Of a stretch of 64,000 nucleotides of DNA, positions 14,060 to 64,000 are shown in pieces. How positions within the stretch are numbered: the first letter of the stretch is position 1; each line of letters starts with the position of its first letter. Below the pieces are notes generated by a model. The model did no database searches and had not been told where the DNA came from. It was given only the letters and a program-made list of their open reading frames with translations. Location of the stretch: positions 373,547 through 437,546 of the forward strand of contig JAOAHZ010000001.1 of the NCBI GenBank assembly GCA_026414975.1. Direction: 5' to 3'. The position numbers and the translations under genes are program-made. The stretch comes from Bacteroidia bacterium (GTDB lineage: Bacteria > Bacteroidota > Bacteroidia > SpSt-205).

Positions 14060-14552
14060 CGCTATCTGATTGAGGTCCCTCTATCATCTGAAAATCACCT
14101 TGCTCGGCGAGATATGCCCGAATCTTCTCCACTTTATCTGGCAAATCGGGGGGGCACTGTGCTCGGCAGGTTATTTTTTTCTCCTGGCCTCCCATCTTGT
14201 AGTGTAAAATGAGAGAAGGGAGGTCCGTAATGTAGGGGTTGTCATAGACGTCCTTATAGGCTTCAAATCGTCCCTCTCTCAGAAGCTGATAGAGCTCAGA
14301 GCGTTCCTTGTCTGAGATACGACGAGTGTAAACGCCCACTCTGTCCACAAAGCGCTCACCGTAGTACCGGACCGTGCCATCTGGCAGGAGTTCAACCTTG
14401 TCTATGGGACATCGTCCGTAACAGCCAGTGCGAGCCACCGATATGTATAGGGTATCAGTCGCTGAGCCTTTGGGGGTAGGTTGGCTCCGTCCGCCGCACT
14501 GATGGACATGGAGCCACAAAAAAGCTGCTCCGCCGAGCATGTACAGCCTCAT
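14049..14552 (-). CDS. DUF6438-like exported protein
   Basis: A 167-residue protein with an N-terminal hydrophobic segment (MLGGAAFLWLHVHQCGG), possibly a lipoprotein signal. The conserved core RTGCYGRCPIDKVELLPDG is the DUF6438 signature, with further cysteines at ITCRAQCPPDLP. Members are small envelope proteins of unknown function in Bacteroidota. An imperfect -7 box (TATCTTAG) ends 5 bases before the start. It is coupled to the small lipoprotein gene behind it. Confidence 0.7.
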   Translation of the reverse strand: MRLYMLGGAAFLWLHVHQCGGRSQPTPKGSATDTLYISVARTGCYGRCPIDKVELLPDGTVRYYGERFVDRVGVYTRRISDKERSELYQLLREGRFEAYKDVYDNPYITDLPSLILHYKMGGQEKKITCRAQCPPDLPDKVEKIRAYLAEQGDFQMIEGPQSDSDAD

Positions 14553-59585: not shown

Positions 59586-61112
59586 TCACACCCTCACACC
59601 TATTACTAAGATATCGTCTATCTGGGGTTGCTTTCCCCCCATCCAATTTTCTAACTCAACCCTCAAAGCTTCCATCTGCGCATCGGGTGAAAGCGGACCA
59701 ATCTGAGCCAGAAAGCGCTTAAACCGTCGGCTCATATACTTTCGTCCATCAGGGCCTCCGAACTGGTCTGCATACCCATCAGACGAGATGTAGAGCCAGC
59801 TACCTTGGGGTGGCTCTACTATATGGAGGGTAAAATACTGCTCAGGTGGAGCCGCAGCGCCTCCGATACCTTTTCTATCCGCTGCATATTCTATAAGCTC
59901 TTGGGCATCGGGTTGCCATATCCAAAGAGGGCGATTAGCTCCTGCGTACAGAATGCGTTCGCGCTCAAAGCAAAGCATGGCAATATCCATCCCGTCCTGA
60001 GAGGTGGAACCCGTCTCATCTTGACGCAGCGAGCGGCGCAGAAGCTGATGAGCTCTACTTAGAACCTCATCGGGACTACGCAAACCATCACCCAAAACAG
60101 CTTGCGTTAGAGTCGCTGAGGCTATCATTGTCATGAGGGCACCCGGAACCCCATGACCGGTACAGTCAGCAGCGGCTAGATAAATGCGATCTTCTACTAC
60201 CGTAAACCAGTAAAAGTCCCCACTAACGATATCTCGTGGACGCCAAAAGACAAAGCTCTCAGGTAGATACCGTCGAATAGTGCCTAAGGGAGCTACCATG
60301 CCCTGTTGAATGCGAGCAGCATATTGGAGGCTTTCTTCTATCTCAGCGTTTTTCTGCTCTATAATCCGGTAAGCCTCTTCTAACTGGCGTCGACTTTGTT
60401 CTATGAGCTGCTTTTCGTACTCAGCTCGTTCTCGTTCCACAGCGAGACGCAGGGCTGCGGCTTCCTTTTCTCGACGCTGCTCCTCCTCGCGTTTCCGATC
60501 GGTAATATCCCTGAGCGTGAGCAAGTAGCCTTGAATGATCGGGTCTTTATAGAGTGGCTGTCCTATTCCATCAAAGTATCGCCAGTAACCTTCTCGGTGT
60601 TGGAGGCGCACCGTAAATACAGCTGAGCTTTGTCGTTCCAGGGCGCCTCCTATAAGAGCTCTATCTTCTGGATGAACGATCACAGTGAGAGGCTCTTTCT
60701 CTAAGTCTTTAGGGATATATCCCAGTGTACGCTGAACAGAAGGACTGACATAAAGAATCTGACCTCCTTTGTCGGAGATCAGAAAGACGTCGGATGCATA
60801 CTGAATCAAGGCTTTGTACCGGCCTTCTATGCGAAGGACAGCTTCGCGGGCTTCTAAGGCTGCTGATTCTTTGTATCGCTGGGCCGAGCGCCATACTTTC
60901 CACCCTAATCCAGCCGTTCCCCCTACGGTACCCAACCAAAAAAGAGCTAACATATAAGCTGGCCAATCTCTGCTGGTCCAAAATATCAGAAGGAGTCCAA
61001 CTATAGCAAGCCCGCCTGCTATAACCGTCAGTCTTACGACTTCTCTGCGCAAAGAAGGAGCCTGTTGGGTTGGACGAACTGCTGAGAGGACTACAGCCAT
61101 TTCCCGAGCCAT
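59586..61112 (-). CDS. membrane PAS/PP2C (SpoIIE-type) serine phosphatase
   Basis: A 508-residue regulator. Two N-terminal transmembrane helices (LTVIAGGLAIVGLLLIFW; YMLALFWLGTVGGTAGLGW), a PAS domain (about 105-215; DVFLISDKGGQILYVSPSVQ, TLRDITDRKREEEQRRE), a coiled coil (about 215-280) and a SpoIIE phosphatase domain (about 290-508) with metal-binding aspartates in DIVSGDFYWF, AADCTGHGVPGALMT, ISSDGYADQFGG and IDDILVIGV. It starts 3 bases after the PorP-like gene, so it is in the same unit. The target (perhaps an anti-sigma-factor antagonist) is unknown. Confidence 0.9.
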   Translation of the reverse strand: MAREMAVVLSAVRPTQQAPSLRREVVRLTVIAGGLAIVGLLLIFWTSRDWPAYMLALFWLGTVGGTAGLGWKVWRSAQRYKESAALEAREAVLRIEGRYKALIQYASDVFLISDKGGQILYVSPSVQRTLGYIPKDLEKEPLTVIVHPEDRALIGGALERQSSAVFTVRLQHREGYWRYFDGIGQPLYKDPIIQGYLLTLRDITDRKREEEQRREKEAAALRLAVERERAEYEKQLIEQSRRQLEEAYRIIEQKNAEIEESLQYAARIQQGMVAPLGTIRRYLPESFVFWRPRDIVSGDFYWFTVVEDRIYLAAADCTGHGVPGALMTMIASATLTQAVLGDGLRSPDEVLSRAHQLLRRSLRQDETGSTSQDGMDIAMLCFERERILYAGANRPLWIWQPDAQELIEYAADRKGIGGAAAPPEQYFTLHIVEPPQGSWLYISSDGYADQFGGPDGRKYMSRRFKRFLAQIGPLSPDAQMEALRVELENWMGGKQPQIDDILVIGVRV

Positions 61113-61115
61113 ACC

Positions 61116-62135
61116 CTAAAAGATAGGGAATGGGTAAGTTATGCCTCGTTCTTGGTAGGTGTACCCCAGCTGGTACTGCATCATCAACTGAATGCCCCCA
61201 AAAGCCGTAGGTGTAGTGGTTCGGCGGGTCAAGAGGCTATAGGCTAAGCCGACCGAAAGCCCTTTCTGTAGGGTAAAGCCAGCCATAAGGGCGTATTGGT
61301 CCCGGGCTCTTAAGGCAGCCCCTGCATGAATAGAACCCAGAGGACGAGTATGCCAATATCCCCCTTCATAAATCACAAACTCCATGAGAAAGCTACTCCC
61401 CAGCCAACTACTTTGATTAGAACGAGCATAAATAAGAGTCCCCACGAGCTGTAAAGGAGTCCGAGTAAAAAGCCGAGCCCCACCATGCCCGGACCATAGA
61501 AGAGAAAGCCTATCTGTATCTTGCACTAAAAAACCAATACTTGGACGGTTGAGGCGAGCAGCGGAAAATCCTATGAAGGGAGCCAGCTCTACATTGCCCG
61601 GCACCTTTTGCGTTCTATAGTATAGCAAGCCTATACCAAAGTCAGCATGCCAAAGGGTTGTACGACTGAAGTTTTCAGCCGTAGGTCGGCTAAAACTTAC
61701 CCCGTCGAACTGATCTTCAAAGTATAGGTCCGTAGGTTCTATCAAGCGATTCACAAATCCTGCATAAACTCCGCCGCGCAAATGATCGTATCGTACTCGG
61801 CTGCCTAAGGGTGCTTCGTATGCCAGGCTAAATAGGCCTTTGGTTATTCGCCAACCTCCCGCTACATCGGATAAAAACAGCCCCCCTAGTCCTGCGGGCA
61901 ATTCTCTCAGCTGGAATGGAACTTCTACCCCTACCCAGGTACTAGTGAAGTTGGTGAAGCCTGTCGCTGGACGGAACATATGAGTTAAGCGTAAGCGCCC
62001 CTTTCCATCTACTAAGCCTACTAAAGCAGGGTTCAAGGCTTGGGGTTGAGACCAGAGGCCTACAGGTAAAATCTCTTGTGCTAATAGATTACCGCACAAT
62101 ATGAACCAGACCTGTGTATGTAAATAGCCCTTCAT
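61116..62135 (-). CDS. PorP/SprF-family type IX secretion outer-membrane protein
   Basis: A 339-residue beta-barrel of the PorP/SprF family, which links T9SS export or type B substrate attachment at the outer membrane. A signal peptide (MKGYLHTQVWFILCGNLLAQ) is followed by LPVGLWSQPQALNPALVGL, the usual start, then strands, with LRARDQYALMAGFTLQKGLSVGLAY and a final QYQLGYTYQERGITYPFPIF. It overlaps the end of the type B substrate by 47 bases in another frame, the classic substrate-SprF pair. Confidence 0.9.
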   Translation of the reverse strand: MKGYLHTQVWFILCGNLLAQEILPVGLWSQPQALNPALVGLVDGKGRLRLTHMFRPATGFTNFTSTWVGVEVPFQLRELPAGLGGLFLSDVAGGWRITKGLFSLAYEAPLGSRVRYDHLRGGVYAGFVNRLIEPTDLYFEDQFDGVSFSRPTAENFSRTTLWHADFGIGLLYYRTQKVPGNVELAPFIGFSAARLNRPSIGFLVQDTDRLSLLWSGHGGARLFTRTPLQLVGTLIYARSNQSSWLGSSFLMEFVIYEGGYWHTRPLGSIHAGAALRARDQYALMAGFTLQKGLSVGLAYSLLTRRTTTPTAFGGIQLMMQYQLGYTYQERGITYPFPIF

Positions 62136-63999
62136 CGGGAATCAAGATTACAGCTCGGTATGTATAGGCTCCTGCATCTAAAGGTTGTCCATCTTTTCCT
62201 TCTCCTTTCCATTCTGAAATGTTGTCCCCAGCAAATACTATCTGTCCCCATCGGTCAAAGATTTCTAATCTAGTAAAATAAAAGCCTTCTTCCGTGGGTA
62301 AAATGCGAAAGCTGTCGTTTCGACCATCGCCGTTTGGCGAAAAAGCATTGGGAAGATAAACGCGTCGCGGAAGAATCTGAATACAATCGGTGCAGACATA
62401 AAAGTCAGAGCATCCCAGATCATTCTCCACGTATAGGACTACAGAGTAGACTCCGGGTGCTGAATACACATGCTCTATTTCCCTGCTCGATGCATCGGTA
62501 GTAAGGCGGTTAAGGTCTCCGAAGTCCCAGACATGAGTGACGGCCCCCTGAGACTGAGAAATAAACCGAATGCGGGGGTTATTCATAGTCGTGAGACGGG
62601 GGGACAGCTCAAAAGCGGCTTGCGGAGATGGGATAACCTCCACAGGAAACTCATCCACGCTTTCACAGGTGCCTTGACGCAAATAGACAACAAATGTATC
62701 CCGTCCTACAGGGAGGCGCCCTGCCTCATACAAGCTTCCAGTAGTGAGAAAATAAGGATTGGTCGTAGAGAAACCTCCACTGGCTCTAATCCGCTCTATA
62801 CTTCCTCTAAACCACAGTATGTCACTGCGATTCGGCACAGCAGACAAAGTGAGGGCAACCCCGCTGCACACCTGATTAGGGGCTGAGATGCGTATTGAAG
62901 TGCCAGACTCCACATACACAGAGTCCGTATAAACCATACCGCCACAAGTAGTGCCTAAAACCACCCAAGAAATGTATACCCAGCTGCCTACATCTCTTGG
63001 ATCAGGTATGTAGTAAGCTTCAGGGACAAGAATACTGGGATAAAAGACACCATTTCCATTAGGGGTGGTCCAAAAGCCCCCTGCACCTGATGTGATTTCT
63101 CCCCTCAGACGCACTCGCCCCCCGTAGCAAACATATCGGTTGGCAGAGTTTATAGAGAAGCTGCCCTGGGCATCCGTAGGATTTACTGTGAGCTGAAGGC
63201 ACAGAGTATCCTTATTCCTATCTCGACAGAGCGTCGTATCTTCAGGGCGAATAACCCAACAGATCGTAACTTGATTGAAATCTCCTAGGCCTACCACATA
63301 TAGCCCACTGGGGTTTGTAGAGTCTATAAAGGTACCTGTACCATTCGGAGTGAGCCAAATACCAGGTCCCACTGCGTTTAAGCTGATTGTATCCCCTTGA
63401 CAACCAGGCGAAGTCATCCCATAAAACTCTCTTACAAGACCGCTACTCGATACAGTCAAGGTAACAGGGCTGCTGTAGACCTCACATCTGCCATAATACA
63501 GCTTGACCCGGTAGGCATGCACTCCTGAAGGAAGAGAAGGGGTTAAGTATAAGGGGAGGGTAGGATTGCTCCCTTCATTGAGTATATCGGTCCATGTAGA
63601 GCCAACTTCTTTCTGCCATCGAAGGCTATCGGGTGGAGCAGAGAGCCCTGTTAGTTCTAAAGAAGCAGATTGTCCATCGCATAAGGTAGTGGAACTAGCT
63701 ACTATACTCCCGCCCGACGATGGGCAAGCCCGAACAACTACATACTTCTGTACTTTACTGGAGCAGGGATTGCCGGAGAAACTGTATCTTACTAATAGAG
63801 TGTCTACCCGAGGTGGAGTGGGGCTCTGATCAAATCTTACGGCCATAGACGGCCCACTGCCTAAATAAGTAGAGGAGCTTCCCGCTATAAGGTACCAGTC
63901 AGTCATAGCAGATGTTTGAGACAGCGTATAGACAGCTTCTGTTCCTGGATAGACACTATCTGGTCCATAGATGTGAAGAGGTGTAGGAGCATAAACCAT
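62089..63999 (-). CDS. large secreted protein with T9SS type B sorting domain, 5' end outside the window
   Basis: The last 636 or more residues of a gliding-type surface protein; the frame reaches the window edge, so the start lies beyond. It contains several Ig-like domains (about 100-450; SGGSIVASSTTLCDGQSASL), a PKD-like domain near 470-540 (VTHVWDFGDLNRLTT, VYSAPGVYSVVLYVEN) and the type B sorting domain at the end (YLPNAFSPNGDGRNDSFRI, LEIFDRWGQIVFAG, LDAGAYTYRAVI). Type B substrates generally need a SprF partner, which is the next gene. Probably adhesin- or matrix-like. Confidence 0.88.
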   Translation of the reverse strand: MVYAPTPLHIYGPDSVYPGTEAVYTLSQTSAMTDWYLIAGSSSTYLGSGPSMAVRFDQSPTPPRVDTLLVRYSFSGNPCSSKVQKYVVVRACPSSGGSIVASSTTLCDGQSASLELTGLSAPPDSLRWQKEVGSTWTDILNEGSNPTLPLYLTPSLPSGVHAYRVKLYYGRCEVYSSPVTLTVSSSGLVREFYGMTSPGCQGDTISLNAVGPGIWLTPNGTGTFIDSTNPSGLYVVGLGDFNQVTICWVIRPEDTTLCRDRNKDTLCLQLTVNPTDAQGSFSINSANRYVCYGGRVRLRGEITSGAGGFWTTPNGNGVFYPSILVPEAYYIPDPRDVGSWVYISWVVLGTTCGGMVYTDSVYVESGTSIRISAPNQVCSGVALTLSAVPNRSDILWFRGSIERIRASGGFSTTNPYFLTTGSLYEAGRLPVGRDTFVVYLRQGTCESVDEFPVEVIPSPQAAFELSPRLTTMNNPRIRFISQSQGAVTHVWDFGDLNRLTTDASSREIEHVYSAPGVYSVVLYVENDLGCSDFYVCTDCIQILPRRVYLPNAFSPNGDGRNDSFRILPTEEGFYFTRLEIFDRWGQIVFAGDNISEWKGEGKDGQPLDAGAYTYRAVILIPDEGLFTYTGLVHIVR

Positions 64000-64000
64000 C

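Follow-up and report, generated by a model that had tools for sequence, protein, structure and literature searches.

In Flavobacterium johnsoniae, genes for type IX secretion system (T9SS) substrates with a type B C-terminal sorting domain are followed directly by a PorP/SprF-like gene (excerpts of PMC12618676 and PMC9143113), and for the pairs in sprB-sprF and Fjoh_3952-3951-3950 an excerpt of PMC12618676 reports that the substrate depends on its SprF-like partner. Static operons of this species add, according to excerpts of both sources, a third gene after the shuttle, encoding a PorE-like peptidoglycan anchor. Signal transduction is also tied to the T9SS by PorXY-SigP of Porphyromonas gingivalis (excerpt of PMC4800418), which combines two-component and extracytoplasmic function (ECF) sigma elements and is not a PP2C partner switch. 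Among PP2C-based switches, the closest are Pseudomonas SiaABC(D), in which SiaC activates SiaD (excerpt of PMC8457831), and the RsbP-RsbQ/RsbU type, in which a PAS or other sensor is joined by a helical linker to a PP2C domain, RsbP has a partner protein, and helical linkers switch related phosphatases by dimerisation (excerpt of PMC12143880). Here, we describe a locus in a 64,000-nucleotide window (the whole stretch of DNA analysed; plus strand of contig C11, 373547-437546) from the 2.2 Mb genome of a Bacteroidia bacterium (GCA_026414975.1), in which the genes for a type B T9SS substrate, its PorP/SprF-like partner and a phosphatase with PAS and PP2C domains form one tight run. Type B substrate-shuttle pairs and SiaABC are each known; neither their union nor any tie of T9SS export to PP2C-based partner switching was found in the open-licence PubMed Central (PMC) literature searched.

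The three genes are transcribed from the minus strand in the order substrate, PorP/SprF-like protein, phosphatase, with these features in window coordinates:

59586-61112, minus strand: membrane PAS-PP2C (SpoIIE-family, SiaA-like) phosphatase, 508 amino acids; PF07228 and PAS_9 over cut-off, 6k4e the nearest solved relative
60498-60821, minus strand: PAS domain of the phosphatase, residues ~98-205; PF13426 39.3 bits (residues 108-205), TIGR00229 60.7 bits
59589-60380, minus strand: end of the helical linker and PP2C catalytic domain of the phosphatase, residues 245-508; Pfam, PDB profile match (229-511 of the profile), AlphaFold2
61116-62135, minus strand: PorP/SprF-like outer-membrane shuttle/anchor, 339 amino acids; PF11751, junctions, cysteines and C-tails of 16 orthologues
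62089-64000, minus strand: in-window part of the T9SS type B substrate, 911 amino acids; CHU_C, TIGR04131, PKD, open reading frame (ORF) L004:10089-12824(-)
62092-62355, minus strand: type B C-terminal sorting domain of the substrate, residues 824-911; TIGR04131 at 824-892, PF13585 at 824-891
62404-62556, minus strand: PKD domain adjoining the sorting domain, residues 757-807; PF18911 41.6 bits

The substrate stop codon lies 47 bases inside porP and the phosphatase begins after a gap of 3 bases, both exactly as a preliminary description of the locus had it. Judged by sequence, gene content and order, the substrate, its PorP/SprF-like partner and the membrane-anchored, SiaA-type PAS phosphatase form a unit that is kept across several families. 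We propose, with about as much belief as doubt, that this operon pairs a type B adhesin with its shuttle and adds an input, under PAS control, to a SiaB/SiaC switch to which no output has been assigned. What the sequences show is gene content, order, conservation, domain types and conserved aspartates.

Conservation was assessed in 395 genomes of the class, drawn evenly, the first 13 being the source genome and its nearest kin; at most three phosphatase and five PorP candidates were scored per genome, and extra copies were possibly missed. This PorP occurs in 17/395 genomes (>200 bits; scores drop from 220 to 127 bits), ten of the same genus and seven outside it. The full-length phosphatase, PAS included, occurs in 19/395 (E <= 1e-120), eight of them outside the genus, with scores falling from 411 bits with PAS to 355 bits over the catalytic part only. 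All 17 PorP genomes are among the 19 phosphatase genomes, in the same seven families. The three-gene order, which the preliminary description had suggested looking for in other Bacteroidota, is kept in all ten same-genus genomes with this PorP, with the 47-base overlap in 9/9 loci where the junction is visible and a PorP-phosphatase gap of 1-3 bases in 10/10; for G001, a phosphatase fragment at the edge of a contig is all that was found. Since the genes further downstream, as far as lpxC-fabZ, are conserved in the genus too, genus-level conservation is weak evidence when taken alone. The genus is represented by metagenome-assembled genomes (KatS3mg025/026, SKYB and SKYG bins) that are presumably of hot-spring origin.

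Outside the genus, the phosphatase directly follows PorP on the same strand, amid other flanks, in five of the seven genomes, which belong to other families (G157, G287, G347, G186 and G264; G287 is ACE_BAC9, also locus L112). In the remaining two (G012 and G059) both genes are present on different contigs, and G240 has the phosphatase without a close PorP. The orthologous phosphatase of G240 is immediately preceded by another PP2C gene (L149:3517-4998). Whether phosphatase orthologues occur in unrelated contexts, which the preliminary description had taken as the point that would count against a link, thus has a mixed answer: 3/8 outside the genus are not beside PorP, but two of these three have PorP elsewhere. 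Trees of PorP and of the phosphatase both recover the genus clade and the grouping of G287 with G157, and leave the remaining branches open. The tight spacing of the unit is ordinary for a very compact genome, as 21 of 32 neighbouring same-strand ORF pairs in the window are <=10 bases apart (median 1; ORFs chosen by our own greedy picking). It is therefore conservation outside the genus, and not spacing, that argues against pure chance adjacency.

A possible but clearly less probable account is operon convenience, in which the phosphatase would be a global sensor carried on the same transcript as the adhesin pair without a functional tie. The compactness of the genome, the conservation of the whole stretch down to lpxC-fabZ within the genus and the separation of the two halves in G012 and G059 speak for it, as does a SUKH gene that outside the genus comes after the phosphatase and not after PorP; yet PorP and phosphatase stay together in four further families whose flanking genes differ, and 17/17 genomes with this PorP have this phosphatase. 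Furthermore, 26 additional PorP loci, examined with flanks of 1.5 kb (18 from one search and eight from the class-wide PorP search), yielded a single PP2C, convergent on the opposite strand. A general PorP-PP2C pairing was rejected on this count, and the pairing is specific to this pair of orthologues.

The gene after the phosphatase bears on a second alternative. All eight phosphatase genes outside the genus are succeeded in the same orientation by a SUKH/SMI1-KNR4 gene, which was seen directly in seven (PF09346, 39-77 bits, cut-off 25.4); in the eighth, G264, a separate contig ends with the remainder of the phosphatase and then a gene matching the SUKH profile at 105 bits, and the two phosphatase contigs probably join. 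An excerpt of PMC7073777 reports SUKH-1 proteins as predicted immunity proteins encoded after the polymorphic toxins of Bacteroidetes, in neighbourhoods rich in T9SS substrates, so that the locus might be a contact or toxin-immunity module with the substrate as polymorphic toxin and SUKH as its immunity protein. We consider this very improbable: the substrates end in a type B sorting domain, Pfam scans of the window substrate and five others (four of the five cut by locus ends) gave no toxin domain, the five having only CHU_C, PKD and Ig_7 apart from one weak FlgD_ig match among the scanned substrates, the SUKH gene accompanies the phosphatase even in genomes that have the substrate-PorP pair at another place, and it is absent from the unit locus in the source genus. 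The SUKH profile is matched in 9/11 genus genomes at <=31 bits; in the source genome an unlinked, divergent short ORF (L193:1393-1773; 25.4 bits with our own profile, 19.8 with Pfam, under cut-off) is a candidate only. The SUKH protein may instead be the phosphatase's own regulator or partner.

The substrate is longer than first described. The ATG at 63999, previously taken as its start, is internal to an ORF of 911 amino acids (window 62089-64824) whose first 824 bases lie past the window edge. It matches CHU_C (PF13585) at 55.3 bits (cut-off 27) and TIGR04131 at 35.4 (cut-off 35), which places its end in the type B class of sorting domains. Orthologues have the C-terminal PKD and sorting region in common with the window protein; a region corresponding to its residues ~470-656 recurs up to ~10 times in orthologues outside the genus, and sizes range from 860 to >2300 amino acids, several being cut by locus ends. 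With such repeats and sizes, the protein looks like a repeat-stalk surface protein, and we infer that it is an adhesin. In G007 the substrate frame seems broken ahead of the sorting domain (L058:6121-8926), possibly through an assembly error. The T9SS machine itself is present in the source genome, as indicated by a core PorP-GldK-GldL-GldM-GldN run at L066:8648-14268 (GldN under cut-off).

As in the F. johnsoniae pairs, the PorP/SprF-like gene is directly downstream of the substrate. Its product matches PF11751 at 55.3 bits (cut-off 22.3) and NCBIfam TIGR03519 at 76.8, below the cut-off of 90.55, which makes it a divergent family member; it had no match among solved structures. The signal peptide, judged by eye, is encoded within the 47-base overlap. 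SprF differs in carrying a C-terminal Cys-X-Cys that links it to GldK (excerpt of PMC12635249): the protein here has no cysteine past the signal peptide and ends in PFPIF, and none of the last 15 residues is a cysteine in 16/16 PorP orthologues. It is therefore not an SprF-type gliding carrier, and the idea of the adhesin as gliding cargo on such a carrier was rejected. The third gene, in turn, sets the locus apart from the static operons, a PAS-PP2C phosphatase standing where those have the peptidoglycan anchor.

The phosphatase (PF07228, 58.4 bits) consists of two N-terminal helices, the PAS domain, a long helix and the PP2C domain. Of the two membrane helices it had been credited with, the first is clear (residues 25-43, Kyte-Doolittle 2.45), but the second is weaker in the window protein (residues 52-70, 1.26); the corresponding value is 2.0-2.6 in G006, G287, G157 and G012 and <=1.0 in G347, G008, G003 and G264. 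An AlphaFold2 model places helices at 21-46 and 50-106, with a predicted loop of ~3 residues between them; given that it was built from eight sequences and reached a predicted template modelling score of 0.50 (mean predicted local distance difference test 77.7), the domain arrangement is uncertain. No periplasmic sensor domain was found in the phosphatase, and the PAS matches are generic. The envelope or redox sensing proposed earlier thus finds no support in the anatomy; a protein without a periplasmic domain is a poor candidate for sensing the envelope directly, although its helices could still react to the membrane around them.

The catalytic domain is of the SiaA type by sequence, predicted fold and tree, and is predicted to dephosphorylate SiaC. 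The best match in a PDB profile search was the SiaA PP2C domain 6k4e (4e-59), the remaining matches all falling in the PAS part, and the top two Foldseek matches were 6k4e (E ~1e-19), followed by RsbX (1e-10). The best NCBIfam match is likewise SiaA, at 183.4; with an equivalog cut-off of 700, the protein is SiaA-like and not SiaA itself, and its N-terminus of two helices and a PAS domain differs too. Five aspartates (D299, D316, D445, D499 and D500), which we take to be metal ligands, are invariant in seven aligned orthologues. In the catalytic-domain tree, the phosphatase shares an unsorted fork with SiaA and most of its own paralogues.

The source genome also encodes the other parts of such a switch. 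It holds 18 strong SpoIIE-family matches and two weak ones (loci L005-L024), a large set for 2.2 Mb. There are five SiaC-like genes and at least three DUF6272 (SiaB-like) genes adjoining SiaC genes. Specifically, a PP2C-DUF6272-SiaC-DUF6272-SiaC run (L083:2675-7357) has a single PAS phosphatase followed by two SiaB/SiaC pairs, and this phosphatase (L083:2675-5410) is, by total score, the highest-scoring of the genome's own paralogues against the focal one (198.1 bits; next 194.5 and 192.1). An N-T-S site matching T68 of SiaC, a residue whose peptide is named in an excerpt of PMC7647112, is kept as threonine, the phospho-site residue, in three of the five, and is serine in the other two. Across the class, SiaA-like PP2C occurs in 195/395 genomes and SiaC in 211/395, together in 194 and alone in 1 and 17, respectively (limits E <= 1e-80 and 1e-10; the lists were compiled by hand, and kinship inflates the test value).

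The Pseudomonas system includes the GGDEF protein SiaD, whereas no GGDEF match was found in 15 unit-bearing genomes, taken from a set of 20 (G001, G004, G007, G008 and G011 were left out); the same search found a match in 8/14 control genomes. A cyclic di-GMP (c-di-GMP) output was rejected on this basis and, if Pseudomonas logic applies, the SiaC effector differs from SiaD. SiaC is present in these 15 genomes, as it is in about half of those sampled from the class, and with no GGDEF match the switch in them should have another output; the operon offers a physical handle, adhesin display, for finding it. More broadly, the recurring arrangement suggests that surface-protein display is tied to a little-studied phosphorylation switch in several uncultured Bacteroidota.

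Partner switching had been proposed before, with STAS or HATPase anti-sigma genes to be looked for near the phosphatase. The phosphatase does belong to such a family, but its closest partner system is SiaB/SiaC, and neither a STAS (PF01740) nor a strong HATPase (PF13581) match was found within the unit in genome searches, the nearest HATPase match being ~8 kb off and under cut-off (C11:425029-425313, 23.6 bits). In a classical RsbU/SigB-type switch, the phosphatase would act on a STAS anti-anti-sigma factor and a HATPase anti-sigma kinase would in consequence release its sigma factor, with the substrate operon maybe in the regulon. The genome has STAS matches in four places (one weak), and two strong solo HATPase_c_2 genes, including one PP2C-STAS-HATPase run on C2 (L087:5523-8285); that run, however, has its own multi-helix membrane phosphatase, which is very distant, on a branch 6.9 long in the catalytic-domain tree and at 14.3 bits with the focal catalytic profile, compared with 237.7 for the SiaBC-linked paralogue and 189.1 for SiaA. 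We regard this switch as unlikely here. Compared with RsbP-RsbQ, the adjacent gene outside the genus is SUKH and not an alpha/beta hydrolase.

Under the SiaB/SiaC proposal, the T9SS would export the substrate, and PorP would shuttle and anchor it, with the dependence seen in the F. johnsoniae pairs. The PAS domain would, through the helical linker, switch dimeric PP2C domains on; these would remove the phosphate that a SiaB-type kinase puts on a SiaC-type (STAS-like) protein, and free SiaC would then bind and alter a partner other than a diguanylate cyclase. Co-production of sensor and adhesin would tie an attachment programme to the signal. The two halves would be functionally coupled, and the phosphatase may control either expression or export of the substrate.

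Several observations weigh against this proposal. The unit locus has neither a SiaB nor a SiaC gene, the phosphatase sitting in a T9SS operon away from siaBC, and with ~18 SpoIIE phosphatases in the genome any single wiring is uncertain. The co-occurrence with SiaC covers all SiaA-like phosphatases and not that of the unit alone, uncorrected for phylogeny. The NCBIfam score is far from the SiaA cut-off, and the catalytic-domain tree leaves the nearest paralogue undecided and lends no strong support to a grouping of the genus orthologues with those outside it. The split of PorP and phosphatase in two of the seven outside-genus genomes and the lack of SUKH at the locus in the source genus count on the same side.

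An extension in which the locus is a four-part surface-sensing cassette is unlikely: the T9SS adhesin, PorP anchor and PAS phosphatase, with SUKH as a dedicated, RsbQ/RsbT-like phosphatase regulator, would report adhesin display or engagement to a c-di-GMP-independent SiaB/SiaC switch. If true, it would be the first known partner switch built into a T9SS export operon.

The same-strand run exceeds the three genes. Two T9SS-related genes lie 5', beyond the window edge, one of 329 amino acids that ends in a type A tail (TIGR04183 26.6, cut-off 23) and one of 200 amino acids with a weak dockerin-like match. Downstream of the phosphatase, FTCD (formiminotransferase) is followed on the same strand by two genes that we take to be lpxD and lpxC-fabZ. 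A scan of L004 with a Bacteroidota-type promoter pattern gave a single match, against 0.21 expected, at 14385-14416 of the opposite strand and ahead of a divergent esterase-like gene; it neither shows nor excludes a promoter inside the unit. Elsewhere, at L099:5314-15000, another PP2C of the source genome (1222 amino acids) precedes two large PKD/Ig-like proteins; the type A tail of one of them is barely under the Pfam cut-off.

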